A DNA stretch of 38,619 nucleotides from an uncultured beta proteobacterium. GTDB lineage: Bacteria > Pseudomonadota > Gammaproteobacteria > Burkholderiales > Burkholderiaceae_C. Every line of letters begins with the position of its first letter. Position 1 is the stretch's first letter. The stretch is taken from assembly GCA_903948045.1 (NCBI GenBank), contig CAJAXU010000483.1, positions 1-38,619 on the forward strand, in the 5' to 3' direction. Below the pieces are notes generated by a model. The model did no database searches. It was not told where the DNA came from and worked only from the letters and a program-made list of their open reading frames with translations. This document shows positions 6,143-22,046 of the stretch, one piece after another. A program made the translations under genes and the position numbers.

Positions 6143-6156
6143 GTTTGCAGCGGTTC
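6143..6156 (+). repeat. Left copy of 14-bp direct repeat GTTTGCAGCGGTTC (putative island boundary)
   Basis: Exact match to 19346-19359; lies 5 bp after the pglL stop codon. Confidence 0.6.
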
Positions 6157-6277
6157 GCACAATGGTGGGAGCATGTCACCTCAATCCGGTCAGAACGAAA
6201 ATGGACGGTGCTATTTACTATCAACGGTCCGTGCTCGGGTCTTTGGGGAGGAATATGGCCAACCTTGTTGTGCGTTT

Positions 6278-7804
6278 CTAGTCCTTGATGCTTGACTTTC
6301 GAGGCCAGCGGCTACGCGTCTTGAGGGCCAGCCCGCTGGTGCGGCGCACGAACCGTTGAGTGTCGTCGACGTTGACCTGATAGTCCCAGGGCGGACGCAT
6401 TTCGCTCGGCAGTTCCTTGATGAAGCGTCGTCGTGTTTGGCTCTTCAGCACCTCGTTGCGAATCCGTTCCGGTTCCCACCAGGAGAGCAGTTCGTTACGC
6501 AGCCCGGCCAGCACTTCGCCCGCGATGGAGGCAATGTTGTGCAGTTCGTTCGGATCCGCCACCATATCGTAGAGCTGGTCCTGATGACCATGGGTATAAA
6601 TGAGCTTGTAGCGTCCGCGCCGCAGCATGCAGCAGGGAGTCGATACCCCATCGGCCATGTACTCCACGAAGGCTGTCGCTTGGTCTGGGTCCGAGCGGCC
6701 CTCCATCAGCGGTCGCAGCGAACGGCCGTCGATCGGGTCGACCCATTTTGTTGTCGCGCCGTCAGTGCAGAAGTCAATCAGCGTTGGCAGCAGGTCGACG
6801 TGGGAGGCGCAGTCCGGGATCCGACGCATCGTCGACGACCCCGGCGGGCGGATGAGCAGCGGCACCTTGGCCGACCAGTCGAAGAACACTCGCTTGAACC
6901 ACATTCCGCGCTCGCCCATCATTTCGCCGTGGTCGGTGGTGAAGACTACGATGGTGTCGTCATCCATGCCTGAGCGCTTCAGGGTGAGAAGCAGGTTGCC
7001 CACCTTGTCGTCAATGTAGCTGATCATCGCGTAGTAGGTGTGGCGGGCACGGCGGATCTGCTCTTCGCTGGCGGACTTCTCGGCCAGACCATGCGAATGC
7101 TGGATCCAGCGGCTTAGGGTGTCACGCTGCTCCATCGGCATATCGCCAACAATCGGCAGGTTGATTTCCTCAGGTTTGTAGCGCTCCAGGTATTCCGGAA
7201 GGATGTGGAACGGCGGGTGCGGGTGGGTGAACGAGACACACAAGAAGAACGGGGCAGTCGAGTCGTCCCGCGCTAGGTCGTAGAGGCACTGGACGGACTT
7301 TGTCTCTACCTCTTCGTCATAGTCGAGTTGCAGGCTGCGGTAGCATAGGCCGCTCTCGTCTATTGTCCCGAGGTTGTATCCTGATGGGGCGGTTTCATTC
7401 TCTTTCTTGCGCCAGTCGGCCGTCCATGCGAAGTCTGACGGGTAGATGTCCGTGGTTAGGCGTTGCTGGAACCCGTGCAACTGGTCCGGTCCAGCGAAGT
7501 GCATTTTGCCTGACAAGATGGTCTTGTAGCCCAGGCTATTGAGGTAGTACGGTAGGGTTGGCGTGGCGGCAGGGAATTCGCTGGCGTTGTCGAAGGCGCC
7601 GATGCGAGAGGCGAACTGGCCGGCCATCAGCGACGAACGCGCCGGCGAACACAAAGGGAAGTTGCAGTAAGCGTTGTCGAAGACTGCCGACCGCTTGGCG
7701 AGCTCTTCGAGGTAGGGAGCCTTGACCGCGACGTTGCCATGAAACGGTAGTGCGAGTGCCGATAACTGGTCAGCCATTATCAACAGGATGTTGGGGCGTT
7801 TCAT
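6278..7804 (-). CDS. Sulfatase, choline-sulfatase (BetC)-like
   Basis: RPNILLIMADQLSALALPFHG, CSPARSSLMAGQ (Cys-type formylglycine motif CxPxR), LSGKMHFAGPDQLHGFQQRLTTDIYPSDF (BetC-like), TTDHGEMMGERGMWFK. Confidence 0.9.
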   Translation of the reverse strand: MKRPNILLIMADQLSALALPFHGNVAVKAPYLEELAKRSAVFDNAYCNFPLCSPARSSLMAGQFASRIGAFDNASEFPAATPTLPYYLNSLGYKTILSGKMHFAGPDQLHGFQQRLTTDIYPSDFAWTADWRKKENETAPSGYNLGTIDESGLCYRSLQLDYDEEVETKSVQCLYDLARDDSTAPFFLCVSFTHPHPPFHILPEYLERYKPEEINLPIVGDMPMEQRDTLSRWIQHSHGLAEKSASEEQIRRARHTYYAMISYIDDKVGNLLLTLKRSGMDDDTIVVFTTDHGEMMGERGMWFKRVFFDWSAKVPLLIRPPGSSTMRRIPDCASHVDLLPTLIDFCTDGATTKWVDPIDGRSLRPLMEGRSDPDQATAFVEYMADGVSTPCCMLRRGRYKLIYTHGHQDQLYDMVADPNELHNIASIAGEVLAGLRNELLSWWEPERIRNEVLKSQTRRRFIKELPSEMRPPWDYQVNVDDTQRFVRRTSGLALKTRSRWPRKSSIKD

Positions 7805-7883
7805 GTGGAGGACTTTCGTTGCGGACGTTTTCGGAGTTGGTCCAGCGCCATACGATAGGGGCGGCGCAACTGCTGCTACCTCG

Positions 7884-8861
7884 TTATTCAGTCAGCTTGA
7901 TGTTGCGCTCGCGCACGGTGTCGGCCATTTTCTTCATGTCGCTGGCGATGAACCCCCGGAACTCCTCGGCGCTGCCCCCCGTCGGGAAGCACCCCAGTAA
8001 CGCGAACTGAGCGATGACTTCTGGGTTCGCCAGGATGCGGTTTACCTCGGTGTTGAGCCTGTTGACGATGGCTGGCGGAGTGCCGGCGGGGGCTAGTAAA
8101 CCGAACCAAGCTACCGTATCGACTGCAGGATAGCCAAGTTCACGCATCGTCGCGACGTCGGGCAACGCGTCAAAGCGTTTGGGGCCGATCACTGCGAGGG
8201 CCCGTAACTTGTTTGCCTTTAGCATGGCACTGGTCACGCCGAGTCCGTGCATGCCGGCGCTCACCCGACCGGTGATGATGTCTCCGAGGGCCTGGGCTGA
8301 ACCCTTGTAGGGAACGTGCAGTGCTTTGAACCCGGCCACATCGGCCAGGGTTTCGATCGCGAAGTGCGCCCTGCTGCCGTTTCCTGCGCTGGCCATCGAG
8401 GCTTTGGATGGGTCTGAGCGCGCGGTGTCGATGTATTCCTTGAGAGTTTTAACGGGAGAGGACGCCGAGACTACAACCAGAAAGGGGATCGAGGTTGTAT
8501 TGATGATCGGTACAAAGTCCTTGACGGTATCGAATGGAAGCTTGTCGTACAGTGAGGGGTTACTGGTATGGGTGGCCGCAGCCCATAACAACGTGTAGCC
8601 GTCTGCCGGGCTTTTGGCCACGATGTCGGAGCCAAGAAGGGTCGCAGCACCAGCCTTGTTTTCAACCACCACCTGCACGCCTAGAGCCGACGCGAGATGG
8701 CGTGCCACGATACGGGCCGACGAGTCGCTGTCACCACCTGGACCATAGGGCGAGATCAGGCGGATCAACCGATTCGGCCAAGCGGACTGCGCAAAGGCAA
8801 GGTGCGGTACCGCACCGGCCGCTGCGAGCACGAGGGCGGCTCGTCTGGAAATTTTCAGCAT
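7884..8861 (-). CDS. Tripartite tricarboxylate transporter substrate-binding protein (Bug/TctC family)
   Basis: Signal peptide (..AAAGAVPHLAFAQ) then WPNRLIRLISPYGPGGDSDSSARIVA, VVENKAGAATLLGSDIVAKSPADGYTLL; typical Bug architecture. Confidence 0.92.
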   Translation of the reverse strand: MLKISRRAALVLAAAGAVPHLAFAQSAWPNRLIRLISPYGPGGDSDSSARIVARHLASALGVQVVVENKAGAATLLGSDIVAKSPADGYTLLWAAATHTSNPSLYDKLPFDTVKDFVPIINTTSIPFLVVVSASSPVKTLKEYIDTARSDPSKASMASAGNGSRAHFAIETLADVAGFKALHVPYKGSAQALGDIITGRVSAGMHGLGVTSAMLKANKLRALAVIGPKRFDALPDVATMRELGYPAVDTVAWFGLLAPAGTPPAIVNRLNTEVNRILANPEVIAQFALLGCFPTGGSAEEFRGFIASDMKKMADTVRERNIKLTE

Positions 8862-8921
8862 GTTTTCTCCTTCAGTTGTCTGTTGAGATGTCCGTTAGTG
8901 TGCGGCGTCGTTTGGAACGGG

Positions 8922-9623
8922 TCAGCGAATGCGGCTGTAGTCCAAGGGTTTGAGCAGCAGGCTGTCCATGCGGTCGATCAAAGAAGGCCAGACCTGCCGT
9001 GTGAGCTCCCACAGCGCCGGGTCGCTTTCCTGTGCTTCGCGCCAGCGCTGCCACGCCCCCATGTCCGTAAAGTGGCGTAACTCGATGCTCCGATGTGAGC
9101 GCCCGTTTGTGGTGCCGGGGCCGATCACAGTGTCGAAGAAGGCCACGACACGCGATCCCTCTCGCTCAAGCGCCGGCTGGATCTGATCAAAATAGGTCTC
9201 ATGGTGGCGGTCGGTGCCATCGGGTCGCAGCCATATCGTGCGCTGCTCGAACACGCCGCGCGGCTGGCCCTGGACCGCATCGAAGCTCGGCCACTGCTGC
9301 GGCAGGGCTGGCGAGCGGGGGTTGAGCCGCAGGATCGAGGTGTCGCAGAAGTCGAAGAGCGTGTATAACTGCGACACTCGACGCTCATCATGCGCGGCAT
9401 CATCGCGCAGACGCTGCTGATGCTGTTCCCAGGCGGCCAGGCTGTCGAACTGACGGATCTGGTAGACGCTCGATCCTGCCTCTGCGCCGATCCAAACTTC
9501 CCATGCGCCGACCAGAACGGAACCGTGGGATTCGATCACTTTCATCGAATCGCCCTGAAAGACCTCGTGGCGCTTGCTCAGGCGACCACCGCGGGAGATG
9601 ACCAGGCGGTGTTGGTAAATCAT
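8922..9623 (-). CDS. NIPSNAP-family protein
   Basis: Two ferredoxin-like repeats: E.R.Y + VLVGAWEVWIGAEAGSSVYQIRQFDSLAAWEQHQQRLRDD and RSIELRHFTDMGAWQRWREAQ. Start overlaps the upstream SDR stop by 4 bp. Confidence 0.8.
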   Translation of the reverse strand: MIYQHRLVISRGGRLSKRHEVFQGDSMKVIESHGSVLVGAWEVWIGAEAGSSVYQIRQFDSLAAWEQHQQRLRDDAAHDERRVSQLYTLFDFCDTSILRLNPRSPALPQQWPSFDAVQGQPRGVFEQRTIWLRPDGTDRHHETYFDQIQPALEREGSRVVAFFDTVIGPGTTNGRSHRSIELRHFTDMGAWQRWREAQESDPALWELTRQVWPSLIDRMDSLLLKPLDYSRIR

Positions 9624-10504
9624 GTGCTTGCCCCAAGTGGGACGTCGAGGGGTGAGCCGGCCGGATGGTCGAAAGCCACCGTGTGGGCCAGAGGTTCCCA
9701 GTGGTCGAGTTCGGCGATGGTTTTCGCGATCCGTGTGCGCACGCGGATCACGGCATCTTCACCCAGCGGAAGCCGCAACGGCAGGCGGTGGCTGCGGGCG
9801 AGTCGGAACAGGACCTGGGCGAGTCGCACTGGGTCATTGGGTTGGTGCCCGTTGCGTTCTTCTATGCGCCGGCGCGTGATGTCGATCGGTGTTCCGACAT
9901 AGGCCGCGATCTCGCTGGCCGTGAGGCGCATCGAAGCGCCAGCGAATAGGGTGCGAAACGAGCCTGGCTCGAGCACCATCACCTCGATGCCGAGGCTTGC
10001 GACCTCCTGTTTCAGGGCGTCCGAGTAGCCCTCGACCGCAAATTTGCTGGCCGCATAGAAGGCAAAGCCAGCCGACGCGGCATAGCCGCCCAGGGACGAG
10101 GTATTGAAGATGTGGCCGGCCCCGCGCGCTCGCATGAAGGGAAGCACGGCCCGTGTGACCTCGACCAGGCCGAAGAAATTGACCTCGAACATAGGACGGT
10201 ACTCCTGAGGCGAGGTTTCCTCCGCAGCGCCGAGCACGCCGTATCCGGCGTTGTTCAACAGCACGTCAATGCCGCCGGAGGCCGTTTCGGCCTGCGCCAC
10301 GACGCGGGCGACGCGTTCATGGTCGGTAACATCCAGCTGGTAGGCAAAGGTGCGGTCCGGATAAGCTTCTACGAGGGGCTGCACGTTGGCCACGTTGCGC
10401 GCCGTCAGGATAACGGCGTCACCTCGTGACAGCACTTCCTTGGCGACTGCATGCCCCATGCCAGAGTCGCAGCCGGTGATGAACCAGGTTTTCTTATTGT
10501 TCAT
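9620..10504 (-). CDS. SDR-family NAD(P)-dependent oxidoreductase
   Basis: TWFITGCDSGMGHAVAKEVLSRGD, LLNNAGYGVLGAAEE, Y-x3-K (FYAASKFAVEGYSDAL). Confidence 0.92.
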   Translation of the reverse strand: MNNKKTWFITGCDSGMGHAVAKEVLSRGDAVILTARNVANVQPLVEAYPDRTFAYQLDVTDHERVARVVAQAETASGGIDVLLNNAGYGVLGAAEETSPQEYRPMFEVNFFGLVEVTRAVLPFMRARGAGHIFNTSSLGGYAASAGFAFYAASKFAVEGYSDALKQEVASLGIEVMVLEPGSFRTLFAGASMRLTASEIAAYVGTPIDITRRRIEERNGHQPNDPVRLAQVLFRLARSHRLPLRLPLGEDAVIRVRTRIAKTIAELDHWEPLAHTVAFDHPAGSPLDVPLGAST

Positions 10505-10511
10505 TGCAATC

Positions 10512-11954
10512 CTAGATATGGAGATGAGTGATCGTTTTGGCGACCGTGTAGCTTCTGACCCCTTCGGTTCCGCCTTCGCGCCCGGAGCCGCTGTCCTTGA
10601 CGCCGCCGAAGGGGATGCCTGTCGTTGAGACCGTCAGATGGTTGATCGCAACGGCGCCACACTGCAGTTCGCGGGACATATGGTCGGCGCGGGCCGCATC
10701 GCGCGTGAATACGTAGCCGGCCAGTCCAAATGGGAGGGCGTTTGCTAGGGCCAGGGCCTGGTCCAGGTCTGTGTAGCTCGCCAGGCATGCGACAGGACCG
10801 AATGGCTCCTCGTGCAGAATGCGGGCCGTAGGCGGGACATCGACGAGGACCGTGGGTGCGTAGAAGAACCCCGACGTGCCGATCTGCTCACCGCCGCACA
10901 GCAGCGCTGCACCGCGCTGGCGCGCATCCTGCACCAGCCCGTCGATGTACTGTAGCCGCCTGGCATTGACCAGCGGGCCGACCGTAACGTCAGGCGCAAG
11001 CGGTGAACCCACCTTGAGCTGGCGCACCCGTTCCAGCATCGCTTCGGTAAAGGTCCGGTAGACCGAGTTGTGGATAAAAAAGCGCGTTGGTGCGATGCAG
11101 GCTTGACCTCCGTTGCGGAATTTGGCTGGCGTGCAGCGGGCCGCAGCGGCTTCGATGTCCGCGTCCTCGCAGACAATGACGGGTGCGTGCCCGCCAAGCT
11201 CCATCAAAATTGCCTTCATCTGTTGCGCTGCCAGCGATGCAAGTCGCTTGCCCACCGGCACGGAGCCGGTGAACGTGACCATGCGCACTTCTGGTGCTTC
11301 GATGAGTGTGCTCGAGACCAGTTCGGGGTTTCCGTACAGGAGTCCGATGACGCCTGGCGGAAGGCCGGCGTCAGCAAATGCTTGGACTACTGCCATCGCC
11401 GAGGCCGGTGTTTCCTCGGCTGCCTTCAGGATGATCGCGCAGCCCGCCGAGAGTGCGCTGCCGATTTTGCGGCACGGCGAGAGCACCGGTGCATTCCAAG
11501 GCGTGAAGGCGGCGACGATGCCAACGGCCTCAGGCACCACCATTTGTCGTAACCCGCGTTCGGACGGCACCACGCGGCCGTACAGACGGCGGCCTTCGGC
11601 GGCATCCCACTCCATCAACTCGATCGCACGCAGAACGTAGCTGCGGGAATCGGTCAAGGGGGTACCCAATTCCATCGCCGAGACCAGGGCCACGTGGTCG
11701 AGCCGATCGCGCAACAACCGGCACGCTCGCAGGATGAGTTCACTGCGTAATGCGGGATTGGTGTTTCGCCAAATGGTGTGGCCCGTGCGTGCGGCTGAAA
11801 GCGCCGACGCAAGCGTGGCGGCATTGGCTTCAGGCGCACGGCCGAGGATGGTTTCGTCGGACGGATTGACAACGTCGAAAAAGCGGGTGCTCGGGTCACC
11901 GGTAGTCCATTCGCCGTCAATGAAGAATTTGATGGTGGGGTAAATATCGGTCAT
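10512..11954 (-). CDS. NAD(P)-dependent aldehyde dehydrogenase
   Basis: AAFTPWNAPVLSPCRKIGSALSAGCAIILKAAEETP, FTGSVPVGKRLA, LMELGGHAPVIVCEDAD, NGGQACIAPTRFFI, HEEPFGPVACLASY. Confidence 0.95.
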   Translation of the reverse strand: MTDIYPTIKFFIDGEWTTGDPSTRFFDVVNPSDETILGRAPEANAATLASALSAARTGHTIWRNTNPALRSELILRACRLLRDRLDHVALVSAMELGTPLTDSRSYVLRAIELMEWDAAEGRRLYGRVVPSERGLRQMVVPEAVGIVAAFTPWNAPVLSPCRKIGSALSAGCAIILKAAEETPASAMAVVQAFADAGLPPGVIGLLYGNPELVSSTLIEAPEVRMVTFTGSVPVGKRLASLAAQQMKAILMELGGHAPVIVCEDADIEAAAARCTPAKFRNGGQACIAPTRFFIHNSVYRTFTEAMLERVRQLKVGSPLAPDVTVGPLVNARRLQYIDGLVQDARQRGAALLCGGEQIGTSGFFYAPTVLVDVPPTARILHEEPFGPVACLASYTDLDQALALANALPFGLAGYVFTRDAARADHMSRELQCGAVAINHLTVSTTGIPFGGVKDSGSGREGGTEGVRSYTVAKTITHLHI

Positions 11955-12050
11955 TGAAGAAGCGTGTTGATGGAGTTCTCAAGACCGCCTCCGAGCTGGT
12001 CTGGACAAGCACAGTATAGTTCGATAGCCCTAATAGATACACATATATAA

Positions 12051-12076
12051 ATAAATTATTCAAATACATAAATTAT
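12051..12076. promoter_or_regulatory. AT-rich divergent promoter core with direct repeat ATAAATTAT x2
   Basis: ATAAATTAT at 12051-12059 and 12068-12076 (17-bp period) within a strongly AT-rich patch between divergent ALDH and acyl-CoA dehydrogenase operons. Confidence 0.5.
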
Positions 12077-12153
12077 GGTAGCCTAAGGCCCGGCCGGTTT
12101 TAAGAGTTCCAACAGTTTAAAAAGATGAAAATGCAACCAGTGCGAGGTTTTGA

Positions 12154-13302
12154 ATGATGGCGGGTGCGTTCCACTTCCCGCCGTTCCAGGAGGACGAGGG
12201 CTTGCGCTCGCTACGAGAGGACGTCCGCAGTTTCCTCGGTGCGGAACGACGCAACGGCGGGATTCCGCCAGCTCCAGCGGGGTTTGACCCTGGGTTTAGC
12301 CGGCGGCTGGCGGGCCAGGGCTGGATTGGCATGACTTGGCCGAAACGCTTTGGCGGGCATGAGCGCACGCCGATCGAGCGTCATGTGGTCACCGAGGAAC
12401 TGCTATCTGCGGGTGCACCGGTGCGCGCCCATTGGGTCGCGGACCGGCAAAGCGGGCCGCTGCTGCTGCGTTTCGGCAACGAACAGCAGCAGCAGCGCTA
12501 CCTTCCGGAGATTGCTGCCGGGCGCTGCTACTTTTGCATTGGGATGAGCGAGGCCGGTTCGGGGTCCGATCTGGCATCGATCCGCACCAAGGCAATCAAG
12601 GTCGACGGTGGGTGGCGAGTAGACGGCGCAAAGCTGTGGACCAGCAACGCCCATCGGACCCATATGATGATTCTGTTTGCGCGCACGGGACCGGCCGGGC
12701 CCAGTCGGCACGAGGGGGTGAGCCAGTTCTTGGTGGACCTGAAATCTCCTGGCATTTCGATCCGTCCGATTATGAATATGGCCGGGGAGCACGATTTCAA
12801 CGAAGTCGCCTTGGATGCGGTGTTCGTGCCGGACGATGATTTGTTGGGAATCGCGGGGAACGGCTGGAACCAGGTGACCAGCGAACTCGTGTACGAGCGC
12901 AGCGGTCCCGATCGCTGGCTCAGCACCTACCACCTGCTGCGCGCCATGGCCGATCTGTGTCCGCAATTGGGCGCCGAGGGGTTGCAGGGCGTCGGACGCC
13001 TGACTGCACACCTATGGACGCTGCACCACATGTCGCTCTCAATCGCCGGGCTGATGGTCAAGGGCGAACACCCGGCCACTGAGGCGGCCGTGGTGAAGGA
13101 TCTCGGCACAAGCTTCGAGCGCGAGATTCCTGAGGCTGCCCGGCGGTTTGTCAGTGAGTCGGTGCGTGCCGCGTTACCGGCGCAGCATGCGTTTCCACAG
13201 GCGCTGCGAGCTGCAACCCTGCTGGCGCCTGCATTGACCATACGTGGCGGAACGCGCGAGATCCTGCGCGGGATGATTGCCAAGAGTTTGGGAATGAGAT
13301 GA
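12154..13302 (+). CDS. Acyl-CoA dehydrogenase (catalytic-type subunit)
   Basis: CIGMSEAGSGSDLASIRTKAIKVDGGWRVDGAKLWTSNAH, C-terminal IRGGTREILRGMIAKSLG. Confidence 0.93.
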   Translation: MMAGAFHFPPFQEDEGLRSLREDVRSFLGAERRNGGIPPAPAGFDPGFSRRLAGQGWIGMTWPKRFGGHERTPIERHVVTEELLSAGAPVRAHWVADRQSGPLLLRFGNEQQQQRYLPEIAAGRCYFCIGMSEAGSGSDLASIRTKAIKVDGGWRVDGAKLWTSNAHRTHMMILFARTGPAGPSRHEGVSQFLVDLKSPGISIRPIMNMAGEHDFNEVALDAVFVPDDDLLGIAGNGWNQVTSELVYERSGPDRWLSTYHLLRAMADLCPQLGAEGLQGVGRLTAHLWTLHHMSLSIAGLMVKGEHPATEAAVVKDLGTSFEREIPEAARRFVSESVRAALPAQHAFPQALRAATLLAPALTIRGGTREILRGMIAKSLGMR

Positions 13303-14381
13303 GCGATATACAAGATTTGGTGCGCGATACGGCGTCGCGCCTTTTCAGGGATCACTGTACGCGCGATGTTCAGGACGCGGCAGAACGAGGCACCTGGCCC
13401 GCGGCGGCTTGGGATGCGGCCTGGGGGGCCGGCCTGTTGTCGGCGCTGGACCCGGAAGCCATCGATGGACCTCTGCTGCCCCTTAGCGTGCTTGCGCCGG
13501 TCTTGGAGATGACCGGTGTGCATGCCGTTCCCCTGCCGATCGGTGAAACGCTGCTCGCGCAGCGCCTTTTTACTGCAGCTGGCCTAGCGTTTCCAGACGG
13601 ACCCCTGAGCATCGCCTCTGGGCTGGACCCCTTGCCGGACCTGAGCCGCACGAACAACGGCTGGGAGCTCAGCGGCCCCGTGCGACGCGTTCCATGGGGC
13701 CGGTATGCACAGGCCATCGCAGTGGCGGCACGTTACGGAGAGCGTATCGTGCTGGTGCGACTGGAAGGTCTGCGACCGGATACTCTGGACGTCAATTTGG
13801 CTGGCGAAGCGCGCGATAGTTTTGAACTCACCGGCCATCGCCTGACGGATGACACGGTGCAGGACAACGCGGCGGAAGTCGGTTCCCGGCTCCGGTTTGA
13901 GGGGGCACTGCTACGCGCGCTACAGATTGCCGGAGCCTTGGGACGGGTGCTGGAGCAAACGGTGCAATACAGCCTGGACCGCGTACAGTTTGGACGGCCT
14001 ATCGCAAAGTTCCAGGCTGTGCAACATCAGGTCGCGGTTCTTGCCGGTCAGAGCGCTGCGGCGGTGGCTGCTGCTGCGGCGGCGGTTACTGCGGTTTGGG
14101 CGCGAACTGGAGGCTTCGAGATTGCAGCCGCCAAGCTGCGAGCTAGCGAAGCGGCGGGCGTCGGTTGCGAGATCGCGCACCAGGTGCACGGAGCCATCGG
14201 GATCACTCATGAGTACGATCTGCATCTGCGCACCCGGCGGCTGTTGAGTTGGCGCGATGAGTTTGGATCCGAAACAGAGTGGGCGTACTGGATCGGCGAG
14301 CGTGTGCGCACCGTCGGTGGCGACGGGCTGTGGAACTACATTCAATCGCCCTACGAGGTGGTACGGGAGCCGGTAGCGTGA
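13299..14381 (+). CDS. Acyl-CoA dehydrogenase-like protein (second subunit)
   Basis: RVQFGRPIAKFQAVQHQVAVLAGQ, HQVHGAIGITHEYDLHLRTRRLLSW; ATGA overlap with upstream ACAD. Confidence 0.88.
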   Translation: MSDIQDLVRDTASRLFRDHCTRDVQDAAERGTWPAAAWDAAWGAGLLSALDPEAIDGPLLPLSVLAPVLEMTGVHAVPLPIGETLLAQRLFTAAGLAFPDGPLSIASGLDPLPDLSRTNNGWELSGPVRRVPWGRYAQAIAVAARYGERIVLVRLEGLRPDTLDVNLAGEARDSFELTGHRLTDDTVQDNAAEVGSRLRFEGALLRALQIAGALGRVLEQTVQYSLDRVQFGRPIAKFQAVQHQVAVLAGQSAAAVAAAAAAVTAVWARTGGFEIAAAKLRASEAAGVGCEIAHQVHGAIGITHEYDLHLRTRRLLSWRDEFGSETEWAYWIGERVRTVGGDGLWNYIQSPYEVVREPVA

Positions 14382-16531
14382 CAGAAGTTTCGACCACTCA
14401 CCTTGAAAGGGTCTTCTCCCCGTCCGCCATTGCGGTCGTCGGTGCCAGCGACGACGCCGACAAGATCGGCGGAAAGGTTCTCCGTACGCTGATGCGTCAC
14501 AACTATGCAGGCAAGCTCTATCCGGTCAACCCGTCACGCTCGACGGTAGCCGGACTAAAGGCCTATACGAGTGTCGCGTCCATTGGTATGCCGGTAGATC
14601 TGGCGCTGATAGCCGTTCCAGCTGCCGCCGTGCCATACACCTTGCAGGAATGTGCCCTTGCCGGGATCCCAGGCGCTGTCATCTTCAGCTCGGGGTTCGC
14701 TGATGCGGGCGACCGAGGGGCCGGACTGCAGCAGCAGCTGGATGACATCTGCCGGCGTACGGGAATTCGGGTTTCCGGTCCCAACTCGGAAGGTTTCCTC
14801 AACGTGCGTGACAAGGTGGCCGCCACCTTCAGCCCCGCTATTAATATCGAAGCGGGCGATCTCGATTGCGAGGCCCAGATCGGCATCGTCGCTCAGAGCG
14901 GAGGCCTAGGTTTTGCATTTTTCAATCGCGGACGGCGCGACGATCTGATTTTCAACTACGTATTCAGCGTCGGCAATCAGGTTGACCTCGAAATCGCAGA
15001 GTACCTGGAGTTTCTCATCGGGCAGTCGCGTACGAAAGTCGTGCTGATGTATGTTGAGTCGCTGAAGGACCCTGCCCTTTTCCTGCGAACGGCCCGACGC
15101 GCGGCTGACCTAGGCAAGCCCATCGTGCTGGTCAAGGTCGGCACGTCCAAGGCGGGGCGGCGCGCGGCGGAGTCCCATACAGGTGCGATTGCAGGGTCGC
15201 TGGAGGTGAGCAGCGCTGTATTTGCTCACCACGGCATCGTATGCGTGGACGATCAGGATGGGATGCTGGACTTCGCTGCCGCCTTCATCCACAACCCCCT
15301 ACCAAAGGGAAATCGGGTGGCCATCATTTCTGCTTCGGGCGGGACGGCCGTGTGGCTGGCCGATGCCTGTGAAGCAGCCGGCTTCGAGCTGCCTGAGATC
15401 GATGCCGGGCGGCGTGCGCAGTTGGAGGCGTTCATTCCGTTCTACGGCTCGACCACCAACCCGGTGGACATTACTGCACAAGGGACAGGTGGATATTCCC
15501 GGTCAATGGAGATCCTGGGGCAGGCGCCATACATTGACACACTGATCATCGCCGTGAGTTTTGCTCAGGAGCGTCGATTGATCGACGATGGACAGGCCAT
15601 TGCCGACATCGCTCGCAAGCTCGGCAAGCCCGTGCTGATCTACAGCTACACGGTGCCATCGGAGGCTTCACGCATGCATCTGCGGAAACTGGGGCTGCAC
15701 TGCTTCGCATCGCTTCAGGGATGCGTGCGCAGCCTGCAGGGACTGTGGACCTATGCGCAGTTCCAGCAGACTCGCCGGGAACGGGATGCGCCGGCTCGCT
15801 CCCCGGACATGGTCCCGCCCGAAGCCCGCCACTGGCTCGATGCACCCGGCGGTGCGTTGTGCGAGTACGAAGCCAAGGCGATGCTGGCCGCCTACGATGT
15901 ACCGGTTCCGCGCGAGGCGCTGGCTCGGGATGCTGACGATGCGGTTGCCAGCGCAGGGAGGATGGTCGGCCCCGTGGCCCTCAAGCTGCAGTCCCCCGAG
16001 ATCCCGCACAAAACAGAAGCAGGTGCTGTAAAGCTTGGCGTGCATGGTGAAGCCGCGGTACGCGCGGCCTTCGAGCAGGTCATGGCCAACGGCCGGCGGT
16101 TCGATCCGAAGGCGCAGGTCCGCGGGGTGCTAGTGCAGCCGATGGCCTCACCCGGTTTGGAACTGATTGCCGGCGTTATCAACGACCCTGATTTCGGCCC
16201 GATGGTCATGGTCGGTCTAGGCGGAATCTACGTTGAGATTCTGGGGGATGTGGCGCTGGCACCCGCGCCGTTGAATGCCGCCGCGGCGCTCGCAATGTTG
16301 GAGCGGCTGCGTGGGCGGCGCCTGCTCGAAGGTGTGCGCGGCGAAGCCCAGCGAGACAAGGCGGCCATTGTCGACCTGCTGGTCCGGCTTTCTCACTTGG
16401 CCTGGGACTTTCGGCATCGGCTGGCGGAGTTCGACGTGAACCCGGTCTTCCTGCACGAGCAGGGGCACGGCCTCACGGTGGTGGATGCGCTCGGCATTCT
16501 GAAGCCGATTGAAGAAGGAAAGACTTCATGA
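14378..16531 (+). CDS. Acyl-CoA ligase (NDP/ADP-forming), acetate-CoA ligase family with CoA-binding and ATP-grasp domains
   Basis: FSPSAIAVVGASDDADKIGGKVLRTLMRHNYAGKLYPVNP, GPNSEGFLNVRDK, VAIISASGGTAVWLADACEAAG, ATP-grasp GPVALKLQSPEIPHKTEAGAVKLGV. GTG start at 14378 overlapping the upstream stop. Confidence 0.92.
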   Translation: MTEVSTTHLERVFSPSAIAVVGASDDADKIGGKVLRTLMRHNYAGKLYPVNPSRSTVAGLKAYTSVASIGMPVDLALIAVPAAAVPYTLQECALAGIPGAVIFSSGFADAGDRGAGLQQQLDDICRRTGIRVSGPNSEGFLNVRDKVAATFSPAINIEAGDLDCEAQIGIVAQSGGLGFAFFNRGRRDDLIFNYVFSVGNQVDLEIAEYLEFLIGQSRTKVVLMYVESLKDPALFLRTARRAADLGKPIVLVKVGTSKAGRRAAESHTGAIAGSLEVSSAVFAHHGIVCVDDQDGMLDFAAAFIHNPLPKGNRVAIISASGGTAVWLADACEAAGFELPEIDAGRRAQLEAFIPFYGSTTNPVDITAQGTGGYSRSMEILGQAPYIDTLIIAVSFAQERRLIDDGQAIADIARKLGKPVLIYSYTVPSEASRMHLRKLGLHCFASLQGCVRSLQGLWTYAQFQQTRRERDAPARSPDMVPPEARHWLDAPGGALCEYEAKAMLAAYDVPVPREALARDADDAVASAGRMVGPVALKLQSPEIPHKTEAGAVKLGVHGEAAVRAAFEQVMANGRRFDPKAQVRGVLVQPMASPGLELIAGVINDPDFGPMVMVGLGGIYVEILGDVALAPAPLNAAAALAMLERLRGRRLLEGVRGEAQRDKAAIVDLLVRLSHLAWDFRHRLAEFDVNPVFLHEQGHGLTVVDALGILKPIEEGKTS

Positions 16532-17316
16532 CTGATCAACTGCTGTACGAGGTTCAGGACCGGGTTGCCACGATCACGCTGAACCGTCCGGAAAAGAAGA
16601 ACGCGTTCACGACCGAAATGCTGCATGCATGGGCCGATGCGCTGAATGAATCGGCTAGCCGCGAGGATGTGAACGTTGTCGTCTTGACCGGAGCCGGAGA
16701 CGCCTTCTGCTCTGGCGGCGACGTCGGTGGCATGCGCGAGCGTTCTGGCGCAAGTGCCTACCGGCGCAAGATGGAGTTGGCCGATCGCGTGCACCGGATT
16801 CCTCTGATCCTAGATGGTTTTGAAAAGCCAGTGCTTGTTGCCGTCAACGGGGTGGCCACAGGCGCTGGTATGGACATGGCCTTGATGGGCGATATCCGCA
16901 TCGCGGCCCGCAGCGCCCGGTTCGCCGAAACCTATATCCGCCTCGGAGTCTTCGCCGGCGATGGGGGGACCTGGTACCTCCCGCGCATCGTGGGCATGGC
17001 CAAGGCGCTCGAACTGCTGTGGACCGCGCGCTTTGTGGATGCTGATGAGGCCGAACGCCTCGGTATCGTCAGTACGGTGGTGGAAGACAGCCAACTGATG
17101 GCGTCAACCTACGAGATGGCCGGCCGGATTGCAGCGCAGCCGCCAGTTGCCGTGCGCATGATGAAGCGTGCGGCCATGCAGGGCGAGCGCATGGAACTGC
17201 GCGCCCACCTCGACATGGCTTCCTCGAACATGGCGATGCTATACTCAACTGAGGACCATCTGGAAGCATTGGAAGCCTTTGCCGAAAAGCGAAAAGGGCA
17301 GTTCAAAGGCCGCTAA
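16528..17316 (+). CDS. Enoyl-CoA hydratase/isomerase family protein
   Basis: VATITLNRPEKKNAFTTEM, LTGAGDAFCSGGDVGGM, VAVNGVATGAGMDMALMGDIRIAARSARFAETYIRLGVFAGDGG. Confidence 0.95.
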   Translation: MTDQLLYEVQDRVATITLNRPEKKNAFTTEMLHAWADALNESASREDVNVVVLTGAGDAFCSGGDVGGMRERSGASAYRRKMELADRVHRIPLILDGFEKPVLVAVNGVATGAGMDMALMGDIRIAARSARFAETYIRLGVFAGDGGTWYLPRIVGMAKALELLWTARFVDADEAERLGIVSTVVEDSQLMASTYEMAGRIAAQPPVAVRMMKRAAMQGERMELRAHLDMASSNMAMLYSTEDHLEALEAFAEKRKGQFKGR

Positions 17317-17325
17317 AACACGGGT

Positions 17326-18171
17326 GTGACGCGCATTAATTCACACATCCCCATGCCCAAAACGAAGGGGGCATTGCCCTCAGAGCCTGAGTCCTCGCAA
17401 GTTGCCGGAGTCGTTAAGTCGGCACGCCGTGTGTTGGAGATCTTCGAGCTGTTCGCCGAAGTCCAGCAGTCCTTGACCCTGACTGAAATCGCCAGGCGGC
17501 TGAACTATCCTGCACCCAGCGCCCTCGCGCTGCTCAAAAGCTTGCAGGCTCTGGACTACATGGCATTTGACCCGGCTGGCAAGACCTACAGCCCTACCAT
17601 GCGGGTTGCCATGCTCGGCGGCTGGGTCCAGGGCCGGGTGTTTCTGGAGGGCACGGTCGTGGCACTGATGACTGACTTGCAGGAGCGCACCGGTGAAACC
17701 GTCATGCTGGGAATGCAGAACGACATTCATGCCCAATACGTCCACACCGTGCAATCCCGGCGATCGCTGCGCTACTTTCTCAAGCCAGGCACTTTGCGGC
17801 CCATTGCTCGCAGCGCGATGGGCACCGTCCTGCTGGCGCAACTGCCGATTGAAGCGGTGACGAAGCTCATCCCCCGAATCAATGATCGGCAGGGGTCCGG
17901 CGAGCCCAGGGTCGATGCCGACGAACTGCTGTCGAAGCTGGCAAAAGTCCGGCGCGCGGGTTATGCGTACAGCGACCAGTTGACGGAGGGAATCAGTGCA
18001 ATCGCCATTCCGCTGCGCAACGATTCGGTGGACCAACCGATGGTGCTGGGGTTGGGCGGGCCGACGAGTCGGATCAAACCCAAGACGCAGGAGCTGGTGC
18101 AGCTCATGCGAGAGCTGATCGATCATCACACAGGCCCGACCTCGCGCGCGACGCCTTCCGGACGCGATTGA
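17326..18171 (+). CDS. IclR-family transcriptional regulator
   Basis: SARRVLEIFELFAEVQQSLTLTEIARRLNYPAPSALALLKSLQALDYMAFDP winged HTH; C-terminal effector domain with GTVLLAQLP...AGYAYSDQLTEGISAIAIPL. Start may be ATG 17353. Confidence 0.92.
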   Translation: MTRINSHIPMPKTKGALPSEPESSQVAGVVKSARRVLEIFELFAEVQQSLTLTEIARRLNYPAPSALALLKSLQALDYMAFDPAGKTYSPTMRVAMLGGWVQGRVFLEGTVVALMTDLQERTGETVMLGMQNDIHAQYVHTVQSRRSLRYFLKPGTLRPIARSAMGTVLLAQLPIEAVTKLIPRINDRQGSGEPRVDADELLSKLAKVRRAGYAYSDQLTEGISAIAIPLRNDSVDQPMVLGLGGPTSRIKPKTQELVQLMRELIDHHTGPTSRATPSGRD

Positions 18172-18231
18172 GGCGCCCCGTTTCGACCCCGGACGGCAGC
18201 CATAATTTTCCGCGTGGTGGATTCAGCACTT

Positions 18232-19155
18232 CTATGCGTTGAAGTGAAGTTTCAAGCCTGGCCGTGGCCACTCCATCTCGTACAGAACGCCAAGACCAGA
18301 TGATGTGATGTAGGCGGTGCGTAGATCCGGACCGCCAAAGCAAATGTTGGTGACGTAGGGATCGTATTGAGGCAGCGAAATCTGTTCAACCAACTTACCT
18401 TGCGGAGTCACCACACTGATACAACTTTTCATGAGTGTCGCCACACAGATGTTGCCTTCACTCTCAGTTGCCATAGAGTCGAGTAATTGATATCCATCAA
18501 ATCCATAAACCAAGGTTCCTGGCGTGAATTTGTTGGTTACGGGCTTTAATACTCCTGGCGATTCAATCTCCCATCCCCACAGACGTGCCGAGGTTGTCTC
18601 TGCAACATAAACGTGTGTATCGTTAGGTGCGAGCGATACACCATTTGCGCGACTGAGTGGATATATGCAGTTGGTGATGAACGAACCGTCTGCTTTCGCG
18701 TAGTACAAACCGGCATGGTCCGAATCACGATCGCGACTTTTGCCCAAATCGGTGAAATAAAAACCGCCATGCCCATCAAACACAATGTCATTTGGTCCGC
18801 ACAGTTTGTGCCCATCACAGGAGTCATAGAGGGTCTCGGTTGCACCTGTATGGATGTCAACACGTTGAATAGAACCCGACAGGTAATCAGATGGTGTGCC
18901 ATATGGGGCGGCGAAGCCTTCCACCTCTCGCCACATGAAGCCTCCGTTATTGCAGACATACAACTTGCCATCTGGCCCCATCGCAGCACCATTCGGACCG
19001 CCACCCACATGAGCGACAACGTTCTTGGTGCCATCGGGATAGCAACGGGTGATGTTGCCTGGTTTGATTTCAACTACGATCACACTAGCGTCTGACATAG
19101 CTATTGGACCCTCGGGAAACTGTAATCCCGTGGTCATGACTCGAGCTGTACTCAT
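18232..19155 (-). CDS. SMP-30/gluconolactonase/LRE family protein
   Basis: EGPIAMSDASVIVVEIKPGNITR, GGPNGAAMGPDGKLYVCNNGG, GPNDIVFDGHGGFYFTDLGKS, NGVSLAPNDTHVYVAETTSARLW; beta-propeller repeats. Confidence 0.93.
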   Translation of the reverse strand: MSTARVMTTGLQFPEGPIAMSDASVIVVEIKPGNITRCYPDGTKNVVAHVGGGPNGAAMGPDGKLYVCNNGGFMWREVEGFAAPYGTPSDYLSGSIQRVDIHTGATETLYDSCDGHKLCGPNDIVFDGHGGFYFTDLGKSRDRDSDHAGLYYAKADGSFITNCIYPLSRANGVSLAPNDTHVYVAETTSARLWGWEIESPGVLKPVTNKFTPGTLVYGFDGYQLLDSMATESEGNICVATLMKSCISVVTPQGKLVEQISLPQYDPYVTNICFGGPDLRTAYITSSGLGVLYEMEWPRPGLKLHFNA

Positions 19156-19210
19156 GTTTTCTTACTCCTGGAAAATGCGAGTGACTTCGCGGTTAACGAG
19201 CAATTGCTTG

Positions 19211-19357
19211 CTAGCGACCAACGTATTCTGGATTGCGCTTTAAGAAGAACGATTTCACGCTCTCAATGCACTCTTCGGTCTTGAACAGTGTTGGCGCCAC
19301 CACAGAAAACCATCTGTGCACAGTTGTCACCTGAGCATAGAAGCGGTTTGCAGCGGT
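19211..19357 (-). pseudogene. Truncated C-terminal fragment of an enoyl-CoA hydratase/isomerase
   Basis: Direct reverse-strand translation: ..RWFSVVAPTLFKTEECIESVKSFFLKRNPEYVGR*. Aligns without gaps to the intact ECH tail (..SSNMAMLYSTEDHLEALEAFAEKRKGQFKGR*); no N-terminal ECH sequence follows, the adenylate cyclase stop does. Confidence 0.65.
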
Positions 19358-19359
19358 TC
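19346..19359 (+). repeat. Right copy of 14-bp direct repeat GTTTGCAGCGGTTC (putative island boundary)
   Basis: Exact match to 6143-6156; overlaps the adenylate cyclase stop codon (19358-19360). Confidence 0.6.
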
Positions 19360-21466
19360 AGGATGCCAGTTTTTGGCGGCACTTTTCAACCATGACCTTG
19401 GCCAGCGCATCGTCAAATTCCCGGGCGATGTTGTCGTACGACACCAGCGCTGCCTCGTAGTCGTGGCTGACGTACACCTCATAGGCCGCCTGCGTTGACA
19501 GGCACAGTCGCTGCTCCGCTTCCGTGGCTTGAGTCTCTTGCGTACCGTCGCGAATTCCTAGCAGCTCATAAATGATCAGCTCGCCCTTCCTGCCTTTGAC
19601 GGTGATCTGATCGATCGGCCGCAGCCAGAGGCGCTCGCCAGCCTCCCGGAACAGTGAGTGGCTGACGCAAATGTGAGTGCCGAATTCCTTATTGATGCCT
19701 TCCAGACGAGAGGCGATGTTCACGCCATCGCCCATAACCGTATAACTCAAGCGCTCGGAAGACCCAATATTGCCCACAATCACAGCGTCGGTGTGCAGCC
19801 CAATCCGAACCACCAGTGGGGGCTTGTTCTCACTGATGAGTTGCTGGTTCAGTGTCACCATGCGTCGCTGTGCTTTCACCGCCGCCACACACGCATGATA
19901 GGCGTGGTCTTGGTCCAGTTTGGGGGCGCCCCAGAACGCCATCACCGCGTCGCCAATGAACTTGTCTACAGTACCCACCTCCTCCTTGATCGCGTAGGTC
20001 ATCAGTTCGAGGTAAGACGATACCCGCCGCAGCAATTCACGTGAGGGTGTGGACTCGGAGAGGCTGGAAAAGTCCTTGAGGTCAGAGAACAAAATCGTGA
20101 GGTAGCGGCTCTCGCCACCGAGCTCCAAGGCATTGCCCGAGCTCATCAGGTCGTTCACCAGGTCTCTGGGCACATAGGACGTGAACGCCGCAATGGTGGT
20201 CTTGAGTTTGCGGATGGCTTTGGAGAGCGTGTTGACTTCGTAAATGCTCGACTTGACCAGCGCAGATTCGCTGGCCGTGAAGTCCAGGATGCTCTGAATT
20301 TCTGCCGTGAGTCGCTCCAGCGGCTTGGAGATGATCTTTGACAGATAAACCGACATCACAGCAATGAAGACAAACGCCAAGGCGCCGAACATCATCAGCC
20401 GTTGGTTGATGGCATTGAGCTCCTGCAAAAAATCATTCAGTGGCACGACGGTCATCACCTCCCACGGCTTGTAAAAACTGGAGGGAAATGGTTGAAAGAC
20501 GGCAAAGTAAGTCTCTTTGTGGGGCCCGAACTGAAATTCAATCTGATTCTTTTTGCTATCAGCCCGGAGTTGTTGCGCCATGGCGGCCGGCGAATTTGGC
20601 AGGTCGAGCACCTTGCGAGGCGTCAACGTATCGCGGTCGCGCGTAAAGCCCTTGTCGACATCGGGATGAACAATGATATTGCCCGAGGTGTCAATGATCA
20701 GAGTCTGGCTGTTGCGACTGATGACGTTGGCCGTCAAGAAGTCAGAAAATGAGCGGACCGCAACCTGAGCGGTCACTGTGCCCAGCAACTCCTTGTCCCC
20801 CACAAAGGGGATCGTCGTCCCAATCACCGCCTGCTTGGTACTGGCGGCAAAAAACGGGTTGTCGATCACCATAGCATCAGCACCTCTGCCGGAAAAAGCC
20901 TTCACCGTGTCGATGTAAAAACCGCGTGTTCGGGGGTCATATTTGGTGGGTGTGGAAAACTTATCGACCACCCCGCCTGAGGCCTTGAAAAACGTGTAGA
21001 CCGATTCCGCCTCTGCCTTCTTGCTGCGGTCAATCACCCAGCTGACGTAATGGGAGCCATCGGGCGGGATCCTGTCGCCTACCGGCAGGGCCTTGTTGGT
21101 CCGCTGCACTTGCCGAAATGAGCCGTCCTTGGTCGCCAGAAAATAACTCACGATGTTGGGGTTGTTTTCAAGGTTGACCAACAAGTGTTCGGCAATCCGC
21201 TCCTGGTTGGCCAATTCTGGTTGCGCACTGATCATCCGAGAGGTGACCCGCACCGAACTGGCGATTGGATTAAGCAGCGCCACCAGGCTATTGATGAACT
21301 CCTGGTTTCCGCGTGCAACCAGGTTGACGGCATTGTTCTTGTAAGTGACGTAGTTTGTTTGGTACGAATAAGCGATAAATCCGACAAACAAGGGCGTTAT
21401 CAGCATCAGGAAAATCACACTGATGCTGAACTGCAGTCGGATATTTTTTGCGATTTGTTTCAGCAT
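19358..21466 (-). CDS. Class III adenylate/guanylate cyclase with extracytoplasmic Cache-like sensor and HAMP-like region
   Basis: Start at MLKQIAKNIRLQFSISVIFLMLITPLFVGF (RBS aggagt). Cyclase motifs LTILFSDLKDFSSLSES, VDKFIGDAVMAFWGAP, GLHTDAVIVGNIGSSERLSYTVMGDGVNIASRLE. Confidence 0.92.
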   Translation of the reverse strand: MLKQIAKNIRLQFSISVIFLMLITPLFVGFIAYSYQTNYVTYKNNAVNLVARGNQEFINSLVALLNPIASSVRVTSRMISAQPELANQERIAEHLLVNLENNPNIVSYFLATKDGSFRQVQRTNKALPVGDRIPPDGSHYVSWVIDRSKKAEAESVYTFFKASGGVVDKFSTPTKYDPRTRGFYIDTVKAFSGRGADAMVIDNPFFAASTKQAVIGTTIPFVGDKELLGTVTAQVAVRSFSDFLTANVISRNSQTLIIDTSGNIIVHPDVDKGFTRDRDTLTPRKVLDLPNSPAAMAQQLRADSKKNQIEFQFGPHKETYFAVFQPFPSSFYKPWEVMTVVPLNDFLQELNAINQRLMMFGALAFVFIAVMSVYLSKIISKPLERLTAEIQSILDFTASESALVKSSIYEVNTLSKAIRKLKTTIAAFTSYVPRDLVNDLMSSGNALELGGESRYLTILFSDLKDFSSLSESTPSRELLRRVSSYLELMTYAIKEEVGTVDKFIGDAVMAFWGAPKLDQDHAYHACVAAVKAQRRMVTLNQQLISENKPPLVVRIGLHTDAVIVGNIGSSERLSYTVMGDGVNIASRLEGINKEFGTHICVSHSLFREAGERLWLRPIDQITVKGRKGELIIYELLGIRDGTQETQATEAEQRLCLSTQAAYEVYVSHDYEAALVSYDNIAREFDDALAKVMVEKCRQKLAS

Positions 21467-21554
21467 CGTTGGACTCCTCAAGAAAATGATGTAGCGCCTG
21501 CCAAGCGTGTCAATTTGCAGCGCAATAATTGGGTTGCGAGTACGCCAATTTTGC

Positions 21555-22046
21555 TCAGGTGGCGGCGACAAAACTGCCCGACTTGCCACCGTGCTTTTCC
21601 AGCAACTTGCAGTCATTGATGGTCATGCCGCGGTCTACAGCCTTGCACATGTCGTACATGGTGAGCAGGGCCACCTGGACTGCCGTCAACGCCTCCATCT
21701 CGACGCCGGTGGGGCCGACGGTTTCAACCGTCGCGCGGCACGTCACGCTTGCAGGCTGGGTGGCAGTTGCTGGCACCGCCTGAAAATCAATCGCGAGTCG
21801 GGTCAGCGCCAGGGGGTGGCAGAGCGGGATCAGGTCGCTGGTTTTCTTGGCGGCCAGAATGCCAGCGATGCGGGCAATGCCCAACACATCGCCTTTCTTG
21901 GCGGTGCCGGCCTCAATCAAGGCCAAGGTCGCCGGCAGCATGTCGATCCGCCCGGCTGCCACGGCAAGCCGGTGCGAACTGGGCTTGGCCGCCACATCGA
22001 CCATGTGGGCCTGGCCCTGGCTGTCAAAATGCGTCAAAGCGCTCAT
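21555..22046 (-). CDS. moaC: Cyclic pyranopterin monophosphate synthase
   Basis: [81 protein letters not shown]. Confidence 0.97.

Follow-up and report, generated by a model that had tools for sequence, protein, structure and literature searches.

A route from alkyl sulfates to acyl-CoA was proposed in 2012 for the slf operon of the Psychrobacter plasmid pP62BP1 (PMC3346939), which was the sole related system found in the literature for the gene set described here. The nearest characterized relative of the sulfatase in this gene set is BetC of S. meliloti (SmCS), whose structures (PDB 6fny and 6g60) it matches and whose residue roles are taken here from PMC9063841 and PMC5870055. The window, i.e. 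the whole stretch of 38,619 nucleotides that was analysed, corresponds to contig 483 in an assembly of 741 contigs that is 82% complete. An earlier note, made from the letters of this stretch, had read part of it as a catabolic system leading from a sulfate ester to beta-oxidation. All the genes it named were recovered where it had placed them, as intact open reading frames with clear family matches; the NIPSNAP gene at 8922-9623 had been overlooked, the IclR gene lies just beyond the end of the noted region at 17316, and the ligase start, put at 14279, is most likely the GTG at 14378 instead, which overlaps the ACAD2 stop codon (GTGA). The features are as follows.

6278-7804, minus strand: BetC-family sulfatase, class I, Cys-type, with an altered choline pocket (PF00884, PF12411, TIGR03417; pocket residues; tree clade)
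7884-8861, minus strand: Bug/TctC periplasmic binding protein (PF03401, 227 bits)
8922-9623, minus strand: double NIPSNAP-domain protein (PF07978)
9620-10504, minus strand: SDR oxidoreductase with YxxxK motif, PRK06180 subfamily (NF004824, 319 bits, cut-off 298)
10512-11954, minus strand: aldehyde dehydrogenase (ALDH), SSADH-like (PF00171, 495 bits)
11955-12153, no strand: AT-rich divergent intergenic region, presumed to hold the promoters and the IclR target (from the sequence)
12154-13302, plus strand: ACAD1, acyl-CoA dehydrogenase, the larger of the two subunits of a probable heteromeric enzyme (PF02770/PF02771; resembles Tcur3483, 6wy9)
13299-14381, plus strand: ACAD2, acyl-CoA dehydrogenase, partner subunit (PF00441; best PDB match Tcur3481, 6wy8)
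14378-16531, plus strand: ADP-forming acyl-CoA ligase, fused (PF13549, PF13607, PF13380; start from the GTGA overlap)
16528-17316, plus strand: crotonase-superfamily protein lacking the two glutamates canonical for hydratases (PF00378)
17326-18171, plus strand: IclR-family regulator, last gene of the plus-strand operon (PF01614, PF09339)
6148-21566, no strand: accessory block, including SMP-30-like and adenylate cyclase genes (DNA alignment against the relative G020)

The order of transcription is ALDH-SDR-NIPSNAP-Bug-sulfatase on the minus strand (the left arm) and ACAD1-ACAD2-ADP-forming ligase-crotonase-IclR on the plus strand (the right arm). Genes within the arms overlap by 4 bases or are separated by gaps of 7-80 bases, and the arms diverge from a 199-base AT-rich gap, a spacing that fits two divergent operons. 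A search of this gap (11955-12153) for an IclR operator returned just weak inverted repeats. In the close relative G020, whose flanks share about 82-85% DNA identity with those of the window, the alignment ends at 6147 and picks up again at 21567, and an unrelated lipoprotein-like gene occupies the site; the flanking PglL-like and BepA-like genes also adjoin in other members of the genus (L204, L206, L208 and L209). The break in G020 and the adjoining flank genes elsewhere mark the two operons, together with the SMP-30-like and cyclase genes, as a variable block. The insertion of this block is directly visible in the alignment, and its interpretation as an acquired catabolic island is a proposal that could fall either way. 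The G+C content of the two operons (0.62) is the same as that of the flanks, and that of the SMP-30/cyclase part is 0.53; this part (18232-21616) encodes an SMP-30-like protein and a Cache-domain adenylate cyclase.

The genes can be arranged into one putative route, of which we infer the substrate class, the sequence of reactions and the link by which the left operon would feed the right one. The Bug protein would bind a small sulfate ester, for uptake or sensing, and an FGly-dependent BetC-family sulfatase without the choline clamp would cleave the ester in the cytoplasm, after which the SDR and then the ALDH would convert the freed alcohol to the acid. From the plus-strand operon, under IclR, the ADP-forming ligase would turn this acid into an acyl-CoA and a heteromeric ACAD would desaturate it; the crotonase-family step would come last, and it may not be a hydration. 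The left arm of this scheme, with Bug uptake or sensing, cytoplasmic sulfate removal and alcohol oxidation by SDR and ALDH, is considered fairly probable. That the right arm activates and desaturates the same acid is about evenly balanced, because what backs it is the shared block and a parallel cassette found in other genomes. The whole route, with the left operon handing over to the right one in an acquired island, is given an even chance.

Among the left-arm proteins, the ALDH scored below the cut-offs of both TIGR01780 and TIGR01804 (403 of 646 and 352 of 669 needed, respectively), and by score it is SSADH-like and not a BADH. No match to TctA or TctB was obtained among the window genes searched. 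Orthologues of the NIPSNAP protein show 91, 59 and 56% identity to it and occur, the window's own apart, in 2 of 399 genomes of the order; one (G091, 56%) stands beside a GMC oxidoreductase, a Bug gene and a sulfatase of another type, and another (G299) has no sulfatase nearby. The paralogue at C564 sits with an ALDH (45%), a GMC oxidoreductase and a Bug gene; this locus and the one in G091 count in favour of the proposed route. The AlphaFold model of the NIPSNAP protein is poor (pLDDT 49, built from 4 sequences).

The closest relative of the left arm, locus L027, encodes a sulfatase 90% identical to that of the window and keeps the SDR-NIPSNAP-sulfatase order at 85-87% DNA identity. Bug is absent there between NIPSNAP and the sulfatase, and the ALDH is a 236-base remnant directly beside the SDR (window 11706-11941, matching L027 8030-8265). 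Upstream of this remnant, L027 4895-6908 carries an integrase-core gene and a split group II intron reverse transcriptase. The best match to the right-arm ligase in the L027 genome reached just 34%, in a 2.6 Mb bin in which absence is uncertain.

In the right arm, the two ACADs have their counterpart in Tcur3481-Tcur3483 (6wy8, 6wy9), likewise encoded by tandem unlike genes, each window protein matching one of these subunits best or second best. The resemblance of ACAD1 and ACAD2 to Tcur3483 and Tcur3481, respectively, makes a heteromeric enzyme a likely prediction; the identity is low, and the substrate is not inferable from this likeness. ACAD2 has a match in 40 of the 399 genomes of the order. 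Related ACAD pairs often occur with a crotonase or CaiB gene and in one case (L155) with an ADP-forming ligase, and no S1 sulfatase was present near such pairs at any of the 20 loci read, nor any sulfatase at the locus of the genome's own ACAD paralogue. Other relatives of the ligase above 42% identity were not found among the 399 genomes. As aligned, the crotonase carries Asp and Tyr at the equivalents of E144 and E164, the catalytic glutamates of rat hydratase. Since both are replaced, a hydration step is without sequence support, and the assignment of this gene as an enoyl-CoA hydratase in the earlier note is doubtful. The Asp of the GDGG motif, considered as a PaaG-type catalytic residue, is one position off in the alignment and was therefore not claimed as such. 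The cluster contains no gene for a 3-hydroxyacyl-CoA dehydrogenase or a thiolase, which leaves the supposed beta-oxidation incomplete.

The parallel cassette was found at the nine loci (L028-L036) encoding the sister group of the window sulfatase (66-69% identity), in Variovorax, Cupriavidus, Ramlibacter, Caenimonas and one Burkholderiales bin; these share ancestry and are not nine independent events. In all nine, CaiB and a crotonase lie on one side, and ALDH, HIBADH and Bug follow the sulfatase, whereas a CoA-type gene within 5 kb was seen at just 3 of the 49 other BetC-like loci with full flanks. The cassette has in common with the window the orthologous sulfatase clade, Bug, ALDH, CoA activation and a crotonase, but its enzymes are not orthologous to those of the window (32% for the ALDH and 28% for the crotonase): CaiB replaces the ADP-forming ligase, HIBADH replaces the SDR, ACAD is lacking, and a LysR gene lies close by at 7 of the 9 loci, versus IclR in the window. 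Its crotonase is also without both hydratase glutamates. The link between sulfatase and CoA metabolism drawn in the earlier note thereby gains support, since ALDH, CoA-transferase and crotonase genes accompany this sulfatase clade in nine other genomes, and by analogy the cassette supports the logic ester to alcohol to acid to acyl-CoA. It is tentatively suggested, at somewhat below an even prospect, that the window-type sulfatase clade (11 genomes found) represents a new BetC-family specificity for a natural sulfate ester degraded via CoA thioesters, with two unrelated enzyme sets assembled independently around it. Beside the cassette, L029 15599-20730 contains a class II aldolase, a further Bug, an amidase and a LysR gene, which are conserved in most of the nine genomes.

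The window sulfatase keeps all the class I catalytic residues that were checked (D14, C54, R58, N75, K102, H104, H201, D296, H297 and K309), and its FGly motif CxPxR reads CSPAR. The genome, in which a formylglycine-generating enzyme (FGE) was to be looked for, proved to encode one convincing candidate (C165), FGE-like in sequence and with its C-terminal half cut by a contig end, so that the active-site cysteines fall outside the sequence. In this contig (L001) a flavin monooxygenase-like protein is encoded upstream in the same open frame as the FGE-like sequence, the two being joined via an HSREGGNP-type repeat. A second PF03781 protein (C690) was rejected as an FGE, the paired cysteines near its C-terminus being missing.

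With SmCS the window sulfatase shares the fold family, the checked catalytic residues, the CxPxR motif and, in the tail, most of the residues checked (W449, R465, D481, Q483 and R494). It differs in the quaternary-ammonium clamp, where W129 is kept and W143S, Y144G, H145Y and E386D are found, in the C-terminal gate N146-D500, of which N146 is kept and Asp500 lost (N495R is a further change; the last tail residues are aligned less surely), and in the absence of a bet operon, family searches of the window genes having found no betA, betB or betI beside it. It is improbable in our estimation that the enzyme still serves choline or a close quaternary ammonium, the operon then acting on choline-O-sulfate or an analogue. 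The TIGR03417 score of 564 bits exceeds the equivalog cut-off of 433, Y123 is kept in addition to W129 and N146, the Asp at 386 is still acidic, and the sister-group enzymes keep W129, H145 and E386. However, that cut-off was passed by all eight proteins tested from several clades, one of which keeps the full pocket, so the name choline-sulfatase alone is no proof of choline specificity. Further arguments against choline are the altered positions 143-145 and the lost gate, the ALDH score far under the BADH cut-off, an operon without a choline dehydrogenase, and the genome's own BetC, which sits elsewhere (C400, locus L163), keeps W143, Y144, H145, E386, N495, L499 and D500, and scores 845 bits with TIGR03417 versus 564. 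With this full-pocket enzyme present, choline-O-sulfate probably already has an enzyme. In the tree, the window sulfatase and 10 others form a clade with full support, to which S. meliloti BetC does not belong. Choline sulfatase as the most likely function was rejected on account of the pocket residues and the separate BetC, in agreement with the earlier view of a BetC-like enzyme probably not acting on choline. Judging from these residues and the second enzyme, the likely substrate is a sulfate ester other than choline-O-sulfate, probably a small alkyl one. The retained W129 and acidic side chain at 386, together with H145 in the sister enzymes, make it possible that this ester carries a cationic group other than choline. 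P-T-N-L-T replaces the choline clamp, with Asp at 386, in a large BetC-like sulfatase clade (L060-L103) that comes mostly from marine alphaproteobacteria; its members usually adjoin a Bug gene, often near a GMC oxidoreductase, and one member tested would be auto-named choline-sulfatase. The source genome (G000), a single bin, has 22 matches to S1-type sulfatases, with Bug adjoining a sulfatase at several of the fetched loci.

Another explanation, to which we attach a real but clearly less than even probability, is that two independent operons share the acquired block and the divergent promoter region, the left one scavenging sulfate and oxidising the alcohol and the right one degrading an unrelated acid via its CoA ester. 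Modules of the right-arm type had no sulfatase at any of the 20 loci examined, the L027 genome has the left unit and no close right-arm ligase, the regulator belongs to the right operon only, and the right arm was seen adjoining the left one in the source genome only; the earlier assumption that the ACAD/ligase/ECH arm belongs firmly to the sulfatase pathway finds no support here. Against two separate operons, the sister clade independently has CoA activation and crotonase genes adjoining the sulfatase, and both arms belong to a single block and are transcribed away from the same short gap. It is very improbable that the genes are chance neighbours in a gene-dense hot spot, forming no functional unit: the site is variable among relatives, G020 having a different gene there, and the SMP-30 and cyclase genes have a deviating G+C content, but genes overlap, sulfatase-ALDH-Bug neighbours recur at other loci, and chance clustering was rejected on account of the gene order kept in L027 and the sister cassette.

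The reading retained here, the route from a sulfate ester to an acyl-CoA, would indicate that Burkholderiales can draw carbon and sulfur from sulfate esters other than choline-O-sulfate, and the pocket comparison indicates that automatic naming by TIGR03417 labels as choline-sulfatase enzymes without the conserved choline pocket. In its proposed logic, which combines a sulfatase, alcohol oxidation, an ALDH and a CoA ligase, the route is the same as that of the slf operon (PMC3346939). The slf operon, however, has its own set of components, namely an alkylsulfatase of the metallo-beta-lactamase type (SdsA1 homologue), a GMC oxidoreductase, an AMP-forming ligase and an AraC regulator, and it is without ACAD, crotonase, Bug and NIPSNAP (PMC3346939); its sulfatase and ligase are non-homologous to those of the window. 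Nor do the window genes form an slf-like single transcription unit, the ligase being in the divergent operon, apart from the sulfatase, SDR and ALDH. The statement in the earlier note that this is not a described pathway therefore holds for the exact gene set, whereas a general conversion of alkyl sulfate into acyl-CoA had already been proposed for slf (PMC3346939).
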